Source: Chloroflexota bacterium
GTDB taxonomy: Bacteria > Chloroflexota > UBA6077 > FW602-bin22 > CADDYW01
Reading direction: 5' to 3'
Assembly: GCA_021323915.1 (NCBI GenBank)
Contig: JAJPKB010000640.1
Coordinates: 1 to 45,483 of the forward strand
Length of the DNA: 45,483 nucleotides
A program made the position numbers and the translations under genes. Of this stretch, positions 1-45,461 are shown piece by piece; positions within the stretch are counted from its first letter, which is position 1, and each line of letters begins with the position of its first letter. The notes below the pieces were generated by a model, which made no database searches, had not been told where the DNA came from, and saw nothing but the letters and a program-made list of their open reading frames with translations.

Positions 1-11
1 GGCCGAAAAAG

Positions 12-37
12 AGGACGCCCACCGGAGTGGGCGTCCT
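12..37 (-). terminator. Intrinsic terminator, attL copy
   Basis: 11-bp stem AGGACGCCCAC/GTGGGCGTCCT, CGGA loop; T-run on the - strand (aaaaa at 6-10). Confidence 0.7.
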
Positions 38-40
38 GGG

Positions 41-87
41 TAGGCCGTGCAGGGCTCGAACCTGCGACACCCTGATTAAAAGTCAGG
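41..87 (-). pseudogene. tRNA-Lys 3' fragment (anticodon arm to acceptor 3' strand)
   Basis: Same as the 3' part of the tRNA-Lys at 45389-45461; the 5' half is absent. Confidence 0.9.
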
Positions 88-16958: not shown

Positions 16959-17276
16959 CTAGCCGAACATGCTCGGCAAGACATCGAACTCGCCCTCGAC
17001 CGCCGCGGTCACGGCGCCGGTGGCCGCGAAGCGCAGCGCCCAGCGCCCGACGACGTTGCCCGTCAGATCGACATGGTACTGGCCGGTGGCGTCCCGCAGG
17101 ATCTGGCCATTGACGCCGTAGAGGTAGGTCGTCACGGATCCGCCCGGCGGGAGGAACTGAAACGTGACCGTCGTGGGATCTGTCGCCACGCCTCCGCTGG
17201 TGAAAGTCACGCTGCAGCGCACCCCCTGGCCGAGGACCACCGTCCCCAGGTTCACCATCTGTGCTGGCGCGGTCAT
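16959..17276 (-). CDS. Hypothetical structural protein (Ig-like)
   Basis: TFQFLPPGGSVTTYLYGVNGQILRDATGQYHVDLTGNVVGRWALRFAA pattern. Confidence 0.55.
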   Translation of the reverse strand: MTAPAQMVNLGTVVLGQGVRCSVTFTSGGVATDPTTVTFQFLPPGGSVTTYLYGVNGQILRDATGQYHVDLTGNVVGRWALRFAATGAVTAAVEGEFDVLPSMFG

Positions 17277-18802
17277 GCCAGCTCCGTCAGCGTCAGCGTC
17301 GCTGTCCAGGGCTCCGTCAGCGTCAGCGTCGCTGTCCAGGGCTCCGTCAGCGTCAGCGTCGCTCCACCTGGCTGATTCGCCACGAACCGCCGCACGGTCG
17401 TCGTCAGACTCGCCAGTGCCGCCGCGATTGAGGCAATCGCGTGACCAATTCCCTTCACGATCGCCGCCGCCGTTGTCGCCGTCGCGGCGATCGTGTGCGT
17501 GAGTCCCTTCGCGATGCCTGCACTCGCCGCCGCCGTCGCCCCGCGCGTTGCGCTGACGCCGCGCCCCAGGCCGCTCGCCGCCGCCGCCGTCCCGCCCATC
17601 GCCTTGCCGACCGCCGTCGGTCCCCAGCGGGCGATGCTCCCTGCCGTCGCGGCGATCACTTGCAGGTGCACCTTGAGACTGCTGATCGTCGTCGCGCTGC
17701 TCACGGTCGTCAGCAGCACCTTACTCATTCCTTTACCCAGCGTCGTGCCGTTGCCGGCCATCGCACTGAGTGCATGGGCGATGGCCTTCCCCAGCGAGCT
17801 GCTATTGCCTCCCGTGGCGACACGCACAGCCGTGACGGCTTTGCTCAGCGTGAGAGCCGTGCTGGCGACGACCGGTCGGATGACGTGCGCCTGCTTGATG
17901 GCGGCAGCCGTACTTCCCACGGGGGCCGCGCGCGCGATCGCCGCCTGGCGACTCCCCTGCGCGGTGGAGTTCCCTGTCGCGGCGCGGATGGCGCCGACCG
18001 CCTTGGCAAGCGCGGCCGTCGATCCCGCCGTCGTGCTGATCGTCTGGCCGTGTGCCGTGCCGCCAGCGAAGCTGACTGCCCAGCGTTGGACAATCGGCGG
18101 CTCAAACATCGCGTACGCCGTTGCCGGATCCGCCAGCGCCGCGATCTCGGCCGCCGGGAGTGCGCGGTTGTAGATCGAGACCTTGAGGATGTCGCCGGCG
18201 AGGGTACCCCCGAAACTGCCGACGAACTTCTCCCCGAGGCCGAAATGCACGCCGGAGAAGTCGAACGTGGTCGAGACCGTACTCTGCTGCTTCCCATTGA
18301 GCCAGAGGGTGCATTGGCCCGACTGGTAGACGAAGAGCAGATGATAAAGCTGGCCCACGCTCAGGGTGCCGGTGGCCGCCAGGGTGCTCCAGGTGTTCCC
18401 GTTCCAGAGTGTCACGGCCCCGGCGCCCACTCCGGAGGAGATGCCAATCGCTCCTCCTTGGGTCGTCGACCCGCTGACCTGGGAGTACAGGCGGTGGTCG
18501 GTCGAGACGTCGGTGAAGCGTGCCCGCACCTCGACGGTCCCCGACGTTAACCCAAGATCCCCGAGGTCAATCCAGGTCGCGGTGCCGTCGAAGTGCAGCT
18601 GCGAGCCAAGCAGTCCGGCAGTCCAGCCGGCCGGACTGCTCACCGCATACGTCGTCCGCTTGGCCGCGTCGAAGACGGCGCCGCCCGCATTCTCGTTGAG
18701 AGGCAGGCAACGGACGAGCCCCCGCGCCAACGGATGCGCCCAGTTGATCCGTGCCCCGCGCGTCGGTTTTTGCTCGACCTCGGGCCAAATCGTCTTAAGC
18801 AA
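17273..18802 (-). CDS. LamG/concanavalin-like domain protein with degenerate Ala-rich repeats and C-terminal (ATLTLTEPWT)n
   Basis: N-terminal LHFDGTATWIDLGDLGLTSGTVEVRARF...HHLLFVYQSGQCTLWLNGKQQ jelly-roll pattern; repeats visible. Confidence 0.75.
   Translation of the reverse strand: MLKTIWPEVEQKPTRGARINWAHPLARGLVRCLPLNENAGGAVFDAAKRTTYAVSSPAGWTAGLLGSQLHFDGTATWIDLGDLGLTSGTVEVRARFTDVSTDHRLYSQVSGSTTQGGAIGISSGVGAGAVTLWNGNTWSTLAATGTLSVGQLYHLLFVYQSGQCTLWLNGKQQSTVSTTFDFSGVHFGLGEKFVGSFGGTLAGDILKVSIYNRALPAAEIAALADPATAYAMFEPPIVQRWAVSFAGGTAHGQTISTTAGSTAALAKAVGAIRAATGNSTAQGSRQAAIARAAPVGSTAAAIKQAHVIRPVVASTALTLSKAVTAVRVATGGNSSSLGKAIAHALSAMAGNGTTLGKGMSKVLLTTVSSATTISSLKVHLQVIAATAGSIARWGPTAVGKAMGGTAAAASGLGRGVSATRGATAAASAGIAKGLTHTIAATATTAAAIVKGIGHAIASIAAALASLTTTVRRFVANQPGGATLTLTEPWTATLTLTEPWTATLTLTELA
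17281..17370. repeat. 30-bp tandem repeat, 3 copies (last partial)
   Basis: gctccgtcagcgtcagcgtcgctgtccagg at 17281 and 17311, partial at 17341. Confidence 0.95.
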
Positions 18803-31991: not shown

Positions 31992-32201
31992 TCACTCCGT
32001 CGACTCCGTCGACCCGCCCCGTCGCAGCAGCGCGCCGCGGTGCAGGAGGACCAGATAGTCTCGGACCATGGCGAAGGACTCCTCCCGTGTGAAGCCGACC
32101 GCGAGATACGCGTCGCGCATCGCGGCCAGGCTCTGGGCGAGGTCGCGATACACCGCCGTTCTCTGATCGAGCGCGGCAATGCCCGTCAGAAACTCATCCA
32201 T
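31992..32201 (-). CDS. Hypothetical small protein
   Basis: 69 aa, TREESFAMVRDYLVLLHRG. Confidence 0.5.
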   Translation of the reverse strand: MDEFLTGIAALDQRTAVYRDLAQSLAAMRDAYLAVGFTREESFAMVRDYLVLLHRGALLRRGGSTESTE

Positions 32202-33093
32202 GGGTATTCCCCTTTCCGAGATATTGCCCGGACGAGGCGCCGGGTCTCACGTGCAGGTAGCGCCCGGTCGTCGCCACCGAGGCGTGGCCGAGGGTGGCTT
32301 GGACCAGGTGAATCGGCGCACCATTGTCCAGGGCGTGGCTCGCGTGGGAATGGCGAAGAAAGTGCGGTGAGACGCCGACGGTGATCCCCACGCGCTCTGC
32401 CGCCGCCCGCACGATCTGCCATGCGCGCACCGTCGAGAGCGCTTTCTGATTCCGGCTCCGGAATACCGGGTCGGTGGGCCCATCGCGTGATCGGCGCAGG
32501 CCGAGGAGCGCGTTGAACGGTCCCGCTGGCAGGAGCACGGCCCGGGTCTTCGCCCCTTTCCCGTACACGGTAATTTGGCCGCCCTCCTGGCGTGTTCGGA
32601 GATCGCGCCAGCGGAGCCCGCATGCTTCGCTGACCCGGAGGCCTCCGAAGTAGAGGGCCAGCAAGAGAGCCCGGTTCCGTGGCTCGGTCTCGGCGCTGAG
32701 CATGCGCTGGACCTCATCCTCGGTCAGGATTCGCTCGGCCAGCGTATCTTTGCGCGGTGGCAGCCGGAGCGGTCGGCCGACGTCGACCGCCAGCATGCCG
32801 ATCCGGTGGCCGAAGCTCAGCAGACTCTTGAGCGCGGCCAACGTCCGCGCCCGCGATGCCGGTGCGAGTGCTCTGTCCTCGAGATCGCGCGCAAAGTCCT
32901 GCACGTCCCCCAGTGTGACCTCGGTGAGCGGTTTCTTCACCGACTCCCGAAACCGGGCGATGTCACGGCGATAGGCCCGCTGAGTGTGGGCGCTGCGCCC
33001 ATGCAACCACAAGGCGATCAGCGTCGCGTCGGAGTCCGCCGCGGCGATCTCCACCCCTGTCCGCGCCAGCGGCTGATCATGGGGCGCGGCCAT
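32194..33093 (-). CDS. Second tyrosine recombinase (XerC/D-like)
   Basis: Core Arg LYFGGLRVSEACGLRWRDL, HFLRHSHASHALDNGAPIHLVQATLGHASVATTGRYLHV. Confidence 0.9.
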   Translation of the reverse strand: MAAPHDQPLARTGVEIAAADSDATLIALWLHGRSAHTQRAYRRDIARFRESVKKPLTEVTLGDVQDFARDLEDRALAPASRARTLAALKSLLSFGHRIGMLAVDVGRPLRLPPRKDTLAERILTEDEVQRMLSAETEPRNRALLLALYFGGLRVSEACGLRWRDLRTRQEGGQITVYGKGAKTRAVLLPAGPFNALLGLRRSRDGPTDPVFRSRNQKALSTVRAWQIVRAAAERVGITVGVSPHFLRHSHASHALDNGAPIHLVQATLGHASVATTGRYLHVRPGASSGQYLGKGNTHG

Positions 33094-39516: not shown

Positions 39517-39550
39517 GCGTCAGCTGAGGCCTTCAGGCCTCAGCTGACGC
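39517..39550. repeat. 16-bp perfect inverted repeat (2-nt spacer) spanning the rep-like stop codon
   Basis: GCGTCAGCTGAGGCCT-TC-AGGCCTCAGCTGACGC. Confidence 0.97.
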
Positions 39551-40438
39551 TTTCGCTTTTCTCTTGGGTCCCTCTGGGCGCGCGATCTGCTCGGACAAGA
39601 TCCGGGCAAAGGTGTGCCAAAATCCGTCTAGTCCCTCCTCCCTTCGCTGTTCGGATACTGCCCGAATCGCGGCCGACCGGACTTGCTCGGGGGATGCCCC
39701 CACCGCGTGCGCGCGCTGGCTCAGACCGCGCTCGACGCTCGCGGTTTTCGACAGGCAGCCCAGCCGAAAGACCACGTCGCCGGCGATCGCGAGATACGGA
39801 CGGTCTGATGTGTTTGCCTGTGCCCTTTGCCATGACTCTTCTTCTCTTTCCTCTTCTTCCCATGAATCTTTTCCATGAGGTAGCACCGGCGGGCCGGGGG
39901 TGGCCCGCATGTGGGCCGGGGGTGGCCCGCATGTGGGCCGGGGGTGGCCCGCCGGCGGGCCACCCCCCTCTTCGAGCGGCAATATCTGCTGCTCCGCGAC
40001 GGAGGGGAGGGCAGACCGAGAGAGAGTGCTGACGATGCCGAAACGGGGAATTCTCTGCGCAATGGCCACCGACCGTGACTCCTCATCGACGAGTTCCTCC
40101 AGCCGACGCAGGAGGGGTTCAAGCCGATAGAGCGACGTGATCTTGGCTCCCGAGCTCGCCGTGCGACGCTCGACCTCGATCAGTCCTTTTGCCTCCAGGC
40201 CGCGAACGATCCGCTGCACCGTCGAGCGCGCAATGCCCATATGTTTTGCCAGGCGCCGCTCAGACGGGTACGGAGCACGGTCAGTCCAGCGGTACGAAAA
40301 CAACCGCACGATCAGCCAGCACTCGTCGCCGCTGAGCCCCAGCCGCGCCTGGAATTCGCCGAGCGCGTTCGGGTAGGTGCCGACGCCATGCGACCGAAAG
40401 AGCCGGCCATAGCGCTCCTCGAAGGTCCACTCTGGCAC
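39533..40438 (-). CDS. Replication-initiator-like wHTH protein
   Basis: YPSERRLAKHMGIARSTVQRIVRGLEAKGLIEVERRT wHTH N-domain, low-complexity linker, C-terminal helical domain. Confidence 0.65.
   Translation of the reverse strand: MPEWTFEERYGRLFRSHGVGTYPNALGEFQARLGLSGDECWLIVRLFSYRWTDRAPYPSERRLAKHMGIARSTVQRIVRGLEAKGLIEVERRTASSGAKITSLYRLEPLLRRLEELVDEESRSVAIAQRIPRFGIVSTLSRSALPSVAEQQILPLEEGGGPPAGHPRPTCGPPPAHMRATPGPPVLPHGKDSWEEEEREEESWQRAQANTSDRPYLAIAGDVVFRLGCLSKTASVERGLSQRAHAVGASPEQVRSAAIRAVSEQRREEGLDGFWHTFARILSEQIARPEGPKRKAKASAEA
39891..39956. repeat. 22-bp iteron-like direct repeats (3 units)
   Basis: gggccgggggtggcccgcatgt at 39891 and 39913; third unit at 39935 diverges in its last 6 nt; each has GGGCC...GGCCC dyad. 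Confidence 0.9.
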
Positions 40439-44057: not shown

Positions 44058-45248
44058 ATGGCGACGCGGAAAAAGGCGAAGGGCCATCACTCCCCGGGCG
44101 AGGGCTCGATCACCCAGCGCAAGGATGGACTGTACGTCGGCCGCCTGTATCTTGGCAAAGACGTCCAGACCGGGAAGGTCAAGCGCTGGCAGAAAACATC
44201 GATGGAGCGGTGGGTCGTCGAAGAGGCCCTGGCCAAGGCGGTCAAAGACCATCGGCGCGGCCGTCAGGTGGGACATGATCAGCAGACCCTCGCCGAGTTT
44301 CTCGACGACTGGCTGGAGACGGCGATCAAGGGGAAGCCGGCCAAGACCTATAGCTCGTACAAACAGATGGTCATCACCCACATCAAACCGGCTCTCGGCG
44401 ATCTTACCCTCGCCGAGCTCACCCCGCAGCACGTTGCTCAGATGCTTGCTCAGATGCGCTGCCATGATCGGAAGGGCAAGCCGACCGATCGTCCGGCCAG
44501 CGCCCGGACGAAACAATACGCCCGGGCAATTCTCCGCTCGGCCCTGAACCGCGCCGTCCGCTGGGAGATCTTAGACCGCAACGCCGCCGAGCTCAGCGAT
44601 CCTCCCCACGTGGACAAAACCCCGGTTGTGCCGCTTACCCCCGAGAGTGCGCTCACGCTCCTTGCTGTCATCCGCGGCCATCCGCTCGAAGCACTCTACT
44701 CGGTCGCTCTGGCGATTGGTCTCCGTCAGGGCGAGGCGCTTGGCCTGCGGTGGGACGACGTCGACCTCGAGGCCGCGCAGCTCCGGACAATGGTCTCCCT
44801 GGAGCGGGTCGACGGGACGTTTCGCTTGAAGGACCTGAAGAATCACCGCCGGGGCCGCGTGATCGCCTTGCCGCGGTTTGCTGTCGCCGCCCTCCGGGAG
44901 CGTCTGCGCATTCAGAAAGAAGAGCGCGTCCGGGCGGCCTGGGAATGGAAGGGCAACGCGCTCAATCTCGTCTTCACCACCAGCATCGGCACGCCCCTGG
45001 ATCGACACAACGTCTCCCACCAGTGGGAGCGCTTTCTCGCCCGCGCAAAGCTTCCCCATGCGCGCTTCTACGATCTGCGCCACACGTGTGCCAGCCTCTT
45101 GCTCGCCCAGGGGGTGCCTCTCAAGGTCGTCTCGGAGATCCTCGGCCACTCGACGATCACCCTCACCGCCGACACCTACAGTCACCTCGGCCCGGCCCAG
45201 TACCGCGACGCCGCCGATCGGATGGACTCCGTGCTGGGGCATGGCTAA
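44058..45248 (+). CDS. int: Tyrosine-type integrase
   Basis: AP2-like N-domain, ALAIGLRQGEALGLRWDDVDL, HDLRHTC-like YDLRHTCASLLLAQGVPLKVVSEILGHSTITLTADTYSHL; next to attR. Confidence 0.95.
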   Translation: MATRKKAKGHHSPGEGSITQRKDGLYVGRLYLGKDVQTGKVKRWQKTSMERWVVEEALAKAVKDHRRGRQVGHDQQTLAEFLDDWLETAIKGKPAKTYSSYKQMVITHIKPALGDLTLAELTPQHVAQMLAQMRCHDRKGKPTDRPASARTKQYARAILRSALNRAVRWEILDRNAAELSDPPHVDKTPVVPLTPESALTLLAVIRGHPLEALYSVALAIGLRQGEALGLRWDDVDLEAAQLRTMVSLERVDGTFRLKDLKNHRRGRVIALPRFAVAALRERLRIQKEERVRAAWEWKGNALNLVFTTSIGTPLDRHNVSHQWERFLARAKLPHARFYDLRHTCASLLLAQGVPLKVVSEILGHSTITLTADTYSHLGPAQYRDAADRMDSVLGHG

Positions 45249-45320: not shown

Positions 45321-45348
45321 ATGACCCCCTGATTTCCGAGGCACCCGA

Positions 45349-45435
45349 GGCCGAAAAAGAGGACGCCCACCGGAGTGGGCGTCCTGGGTAGGCCGTGCAG
45401 GGCTCGAACCTGCGACACCCTGATTAAAAGTCAGG
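45349..45435. repeat. attR: 87-bp direct repeat
   Basis: Identical to 1-87. Confidence 0.95.
45360..45385 (-). terminator. Intrinsic terminator of tRNA-Lys
   Basis: 11-bp stem, tetraloop, T5 tract on the - strand. Confidence 0.85.
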
Positions 45436-45461
45436 TGCTCTGCCAACTGAGCTAACGGCCC
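45389..45461 (-). tRNA. tRNA-Lys (anticodon TTT)
   Basis: GGGCCGTTAGCTCAGTTGGCAGAGCACCTGACTTTTAATCAGGGTGTCGCAGGTTCGAGCCCTGCACGGCCTA folds as a cloverleaf. Confidence 0.96.

Follow-up and report, generated by a model that had tools for sequence, protein, structure and literature searches.

The stretch of DNA analysed here (hereafter the window; 45,483 nt) corresponds to one whole contig of a Chloroflexota metagenome-assembled genome, and is most likely a prophage of about 45.3 kb integrated at a tRNA-Lys gene. This assignment is based on the phage structural genes found on its minus strand (terminase, portal, capsid and tape-measure genes, recognised through PHROG), on the integrase, and on an 87-bp end repeat overlapping tRNA-Lys. 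The two terminal copies of this repeat represent the attachment sites of the integrated prophage, the right one covering the 3′ part of the intact tRNA-Lys(ttt) gene. The features discussed below are collected in Table 1. A second tyrosine recombinase, with an Xer-like SAM domain, is encoded at 32194-33093 and is distinct from the att-site integrase. No ParA was recognised among the open reading frames scanned, nor, in a scan of selected frames of the window, any gene for a helicase, loader or primase. The GC skew of the window falls steadily with gene orientation and carries no origin mark.

Table 1. Positions of the features of the prophage, its initiator gene and the candidate origin
Feature	Position	Strand	Basis or remark
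Left attachment repeat	1..87		87-bp direct repeat of 45348-45434
ParB-like gene, 686 aa	37351..39411	-	Pfam ParB_N 1.1e-22, HTH_ParB 4.8e-20; next gene downstream of the initiator
Hairpin with 16-bp arms spanning the initiator stop codon	39516..39551		terminator-like on + strand
Initiator gene, 301 aa, GTG start	39533..40438	-	wHTH (DnaD_N/HTH_36), linker, helical C-terminal part
C-terminal helical part (about aa 200-301) and stop codon	39533..39841	-	low-confidence predicted helices
A/T- and purine-rich tract (gene strand)	39831..39880		candidate unwinding element
Disordered linker (about aa 126-190), coding DNA carrying the repeats	39869..40063	-	pLDDT
Iteron-like array, three 22-bp direct repeats	39891..39961		seven alternating GGGCC/GGCCC half-sites every 11 bp
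Perfect 28-bp palindrome GGGGGTGGCCCGCC/GGCGGGCCACCCCC	39940..39967		wHTH-side end of the array
Winged-helix DNA-binding domain (wHTH, aa 22-122)	40073..40375	-	Pfam 24-122; pLDDT; profile match to DnaD N-domain structures
Tyrosine integrase of the prophage	44058..45248	+	Pfam Phage_integrase 7.2e-23
Right attachment repeat (45348-45434) and overlapping tRNA-Lys(ttt) gene (45387-45461)	45348..45461	-	

The protein encoded by the gene under study lies above the Pfam gathering score for both DnaD_N (PF21984; 1.5e-10, 41.6 bits versus 27) and HTH_36 (PF13730; 7.7e-8, 32.5 bits versus 25), and its best PHROG match is phrog_270, a replication initiation protein (3.9e-10). Compared with PDB sequences, the family profile hits the N-domain of DnaD in structures 2v79, 2vn2 and 8ojj, and the best fold match of the predicted structure (AlphaFold/Foldseek) is again DnaD 2v79; Pfam and fold comparison indicate that the wHTH also resembles MarR/GntR-type regulators. 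In the model, the wHTH spans aa 22-125; pLDDT is 59-90 per 10-residue block in this domain and drops to about 27-37 past residue 130, helices being predicted at low confidence in the C-terminal part, while the top fold matches fall on the N-domain. RepA_N (PF06970) is absent from the Pfam matches at E<=0.01, no Pfam match to the lambda O N-terminal domain was obtained, and the O-like PHROG matches are weak, 2.9e-5 at best. Judged from these profiles and from the modelled fold, the protein is a replication initiator of the DnaD_N/HTH_36 type, and the description of the gene as replication-initiator-like, made earlier from the letters alone, is supported by all four kinds of comparison (Pfam, PHROG, PDB sequences and fold). 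The hairpin at the end of the gene is perfect (z-score -7.2), and a T-rich tail follows it on one strand, the + strand.

The DNA coding for the linker, disordered in the predicted structure, carries the repeat array. Its three copies (39891-39917, 39913-39939 and 39935-39961) are spaced by 22 and 22 bp; copies 1 and 2 are identical, and copy 3 is 89% identical over 27 nt. TRF reports a period of 22 with 2.8-3.4 copies and a score of 113-124, the 22-mer (with <=3 mismatches) is expected 0.00 times in shuffles, and the array scores 42.4 against a maximum of 14.2 in 300 codon shuffles of the region following the wHTH. The half-sites alternate in orientation at a spacing of exactly 11 bp, being separated on the plus strand by GGGGGT and GCATGT in turns, with GCCGGC as the last spacer; the arrangement GGCCC-N6-GGGCC occurs three times, always inside the array, versus 0.18 expected. 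The dyad within a single repeat unit is unremarkable for such a G/C-rich sequence (p=0.20). The repeat unit is translated in shifting frames, giving the peptide PRPTCGPPPAHMRATPGPP, and it is this shift that places the repeat at the DNA level; since 3 x 22 = 66, the three copies together leave the flanking reading frame intact, each of them being translated in another way. Thus, the sequence-only reading, which had noted three 22-bp direct repeats with GGGCC/GGCCC elements read in shifting frames, was accurate on these points, the array itself being confirmed by TRF, shuffling and half-site phasing.

No DnaA box was found near the array, no Rfam RNA at it, and no exact 21-mer match in viral contigs. 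A role as an RNA hairpin was considered and discarded, as the strong RNA folding of this segment is attributable to its inverted half-sites. By TRF score, the array of the initiator gene ranks second in the whole window. The first is at 17281-17363, where a 30-bp unit occurs in 2.8 perfect copies; it occupies the 3′ end of the frame 17273-18802 on the minus strand.

Adjoining the repeats, downstream in gene sense, is the A/T- and purine-rich tract that had been described beside them. Its A+T content is 58% versus an average of 36%, and it is 80% purine on the gene strand, a strand asymmetry within the top 0.1%. Within the initiator gene, stability is lowest over the 45 bp at 39831-39876; across the window, this segment belongs to the least stable 0.2% of 45-bp positions and ranks fifth among separate local minima.

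The same layout was looked for in a homolog set obtained from Chloroflexota genome searches, comprising 17 usable members plus the window. These homologs are distant, mostly 25-40% identical over the wHTH, with none above 50% identity in the set. The region following the wHTH of each member was compared with 300 codon shuffles, a score of 14.5 being the cut-off rarely reached by shuffles. Ten of the 18 members score at least 14.5 for tandem repeats, at or above nearly all of their codon shuffles, whereas only 21 of 259 chunks (8%) cut from further open frames at these loci reach that score, five of them with a period of 20-28 (Fisher 1.7e-6 for score; 9e-7 for score and period 20-28). The period lies between 22 and 27 bp in seven of the ten array-bearing members: 22 bp in the window, 24 bp in L011, L013, L016, L053 and L057, and 27 bp in L017; the others have 48 bp (L012, twice 24), 42 bp (L061) and 36 bp (L062). 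No such repeats appear in the wHTH-coding part of family members. Except within the trio of related members L011-L013, the repeats bear no sequence relation to one another (e.g., GGGTCGCACGGGGCC in L013, GCGGCAGAAAACCGC in L016, ACCGGT...ACCGGT in L017 and GTTTACC-N6-GGTAAAC in L053), and the encoded peptides are unrelated as well. Dyads are significantly enriched in the repeat units of L016, L017 and L053, and not in those of the window, L013 and L057. Clear arrays are absent in eight of the 18 members, L014, L015 and L054 among them.

The position of the unstable tract is also shared. Determined independently of the repeats, the least stable 45 bp of the region following the wHTH lie 163-217 nt past the end of this domain in 10 of the 14 members (195 nt in the window, 197 in L011, 199 in L012, 198 in L013 and 196 in L057), just past the repeats, in the same order as in the window. 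Codon shuffles give 2.6 expected for these 10/14, and 1.7 for the 7/9 obtained with one representative per close group (p<0.003), a p-value that is somewhat optimistic because the counting interval, 140-260 nt, was picked after inspecting the tract positions. The peptide encoded at this place is acidic and rich in Lys or Glu, which could likewise explain the A-rich codons, so that a protein-level cause of the tract is possible. Moreover, within the trio, identical residues are more often encoded by identical codons inside the repeat region than outside it: 21/26 (81%) versus 107/190 (56%) for L011-L012, 31/35 (89%) versus 135/191 (71%) for L011-L013, and 23/29 (79%) versus 116/198 (59%) for L012-L013 (one-sided p 0.013, 0.018 and 0.024; the three pairs are not independent, and the significance is moderate only). 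The motif GTGGATAA, complement of the DnaA-box core, adjoins the repeats in L011 (one copy) and L013 (two copies). Judged from sequence, the order wHTH, iterons, unwinding tract and C-terminal domain appears to be conserved while the repeats and their peptides are not, as expected for an origin located inside an initiator gene.

Regarding their genomic setting, L011-L013 are preceded by an Xre-type gene, with which they make up a two-gene module; their downstream flanks are unrelated, and L012 stands between genes for LacI and DNA ligase (LigA). A tyrosine recombinase is encoded 1.5-2 kb from L065, L068 and L070, and a ParB-like gene near L016 and L071. This suggests that the relatives sit in integrated mobile elements; a phage nature was seen for none of them. 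The C-terminus of the relatives is either of the PYFF type or DnaA_N, which is domain I of DnaA. In L014 (3450-4640) and L015 (1146-2090), a DnaD_N-like wHTH is joined to a C-terminal DnaA_N, above the Pfam cut-off in L015 and just below it in L014. A search of 50,697 phage records yielded no initiator homolog, and four queries of viral contigs, by protein or by alignment, were likewise negative. Plasmid matches cover the wHTH only; in the short proteins examined (L038-L043), the linker is small or missing and the gene contains no repeats. L038, L041 and L042 are small plasmids (3.3-4.4 kb) from E. coli and Edwardsiella with very few genes, including the short wHTH relative; in L042, an array of 11/22-bp repeats lies about 400 bp beyond the wHTH gene, on its downstream side, possibly an origin outside the gene. 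A CRISPR-like array of eight copies of about 37 bp (GTCAGAACGAATCGATCTCCGTGAGGGGATTGAGAC), spaced by 70-75 bp, lies at L013:178-723, about 3.5 kb from the initiator relative.

Taking these data together with the analogies described below, it is proposed, with a probability of roughly three in four, that the array and the adjoining tract constitute a theta replication origin lying inside the initiator gene and bound by its own initiator. This candidate in-gene origin, which the sequence-only reading had already put forward, gains support from the recurrence of repeats and unstable tract at conserved positions in relatives, and the DnaA_N ends of L014 and L015 agree with a protein of initiator type. 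Against it stand the eight members with no clear array, the lack of a DnaA box near that of the window, the non-significant dyad of its unit, and the failure to recognise a helicase, loader or primase gene among the selected frames scanned. The iterons would be the sites at which the initiator binds its own gene through the wHTH domain; dimers of this domain, arranged on the phased half-sites along one helix face, would build a nucleoprotein complex; the A/T- and purine-rich tract would then melt as the strand-opening region, and the C-terminal domain may bring in the host helicase/primase machinery after excision of the prophage.

The main rival is a neutral minisatellite born of slippage: a G/C-rich segment would have been duplicated where the protein accepts any sequence, and the DNA would have no function. 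Very G/C-rich repeats are prone to slippage, the linker is predicted to be disordered, copies 1 and 2 are identical, as after a recent duplication, and the same prophage holds another tandem array, the background chunks with an equal repeat score pointing in the same direction. However, most relatives repeat in the same linker with a narrow period and mostly unrelated sequence, next to an unstable tract of conserved position, the half-sites alternate at an exact spacing, and codon conservation is raised in the L011-L013 repeats, all of which makes this explanation improbable. Still less probable is that the wHTH protein binds its own gene mainly to repress transcription, as an operator or copy-number control, with the true origin elsewhere: the likeness to MarR/GntR-type regulators would suit such a role, but the array lies some 480 bp into the gene and not at a promoter, the adjoining tract is conserved in position, and comparable initiators (lambda O, RepA_N) have internal sites that serve as origins. 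Origin function and autoregulation might also go together. A centromere (parS-like array) for the ParB-like protein, to which the directly adjacent gene, the ParB-like genes near L016 and L071 and the fit of phased inverted repeats to partition sites would lend themselves, is very improbable, given that no match to the window ParB was found near most of the array-bearing relatives (L011-L013, L017 and L069; several of these contigs are short), that L012 is flanked by LacI and LigA, and that the scanned frames include no recognised ParA.

If the array is indeed an origin within the initiator gene, the nearest described design is that of the staphylococcal RepA_N/pPR9-type Rep. In these proteins, the linker (residues 121-199) is encoded by origin DNA, the Rep boxes of pSK41 being central in rep, and a linker-less Rep still rescues replication in trans; the N-domain of pPR9 Rep is PF13730 and resembles a phage replication protein (PMC5703833). 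The window initiator shares with pSK41/pPR9 Rep a size of about 300 aa, an N-terminal wHTH of about 120 aa, a C-terminal domain from about residue 200, tandem repeats in the DNA coding for the linker between both domains (a likeness of layout only), and structural kinship with DnaD, as well as PF13730 with pPR9. A DnaD-like C-terminal domain that contacts DnaG also belongs to this type of Rep; the corresponding part of the window protein is predicted, at low confidence, to be helical, and the top fold matches lie on its N-domain. It differs in having no RepA_N match and an N-domain matching DnaD_N, in its G/C-rich repeats of 22 bp, and in its context, a tRNA-integrated prophage of a Chloroflexota host. 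To our knowledge, no antisense control is known for the window initiator, unlike the staphylococcal RepA_N plasmids.

The lambda ori within O, to which the locus had been likened, is a fair analogy. In lambda, an A/T-rich tract lies just past the iterons, within O (PMC7466680), and the likeness to lambda O/Stx extends to the position of both elements in the middle of the initiator gene, to a DNA-binding N-domain with a separate C-domain, and to a repeat number that can vary while protein function is retained (PMC7466680). The window has three 22-bp repeats versus four iterons in lambda or six in Stx (PMC7466680), its initiator carries no Pfam lambda O domain, and the gene that follows is ParB-like and not a P helicase loader. 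Thus, the analogy stands for the layout and not for membership in the lambda O family. Because the plan fits pSK41/pPR9 with no RepA_N match, and lambda O is another family, membership is claimed for the DnaD_N/HTH_36 type only; that the protein works like pSK41/pPR9 Rep or lambda O is suggested by analogy.

Bacillus DnaD (2v79, 8ojj) shares the N-domain fold and sequence profile, but is a primosome protein. We know of no origin inside its gene. The DnaD N-domain has been reported as non-DNA-binding (PMC7145576). The RepA_N of PLE, a mobile, phage-related satellite of Vibrio cholerae, has a DnaD-like N-domain that binds semi-palindromic direct repeats; the iterons of PLE are in the noncoding NCR3 and not in the gene (PMC7145576), and no close sequence relation to the window initiator was found. 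The Chloroflexota relatives (L011-L017, L051-L062) share the wHTH, in many cases linker repeats of 22-27 bp and in most the tract position; they differ in their unrelated repeats, missing in some, in the DnaA_N end of L014 and L015, and in that none has been placed in a prophage.

It might tentatively be proposed, as an idea somewhat short of even odds, that a distinct family of initiators is common to mobile elements of Chloroflexota. Its members would consist of a DnaD_N-like wHTH, an origin-bearing linker and a C-terminal domain (in some of them DnaA domain I); the place of the origin, the period and the unwinding tract would be conserved, and the iterons would diverge in sequence, presumably with the recognition helix of the wHTH.

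For a prophage from a phylum that is largely uncultured, the locus provides a concrete candidate replication origin, as well as a rule for finding origins in related elements, namely 22-27-bp repeats with the least stable DNA about 160-220 nt past the wHTH. The frame-shifting 22-bp repeats, together with the non-conserved linker peptides, illustrate constraint at the DNA level within a coding region, and the DnaA domain I of some members bears on how such initiators may recruit the helicase. The design in which the origin lies inside the initiator gene, known from lambda and from Firmicutes plasmids, would thus be extended to Chloroflexota.
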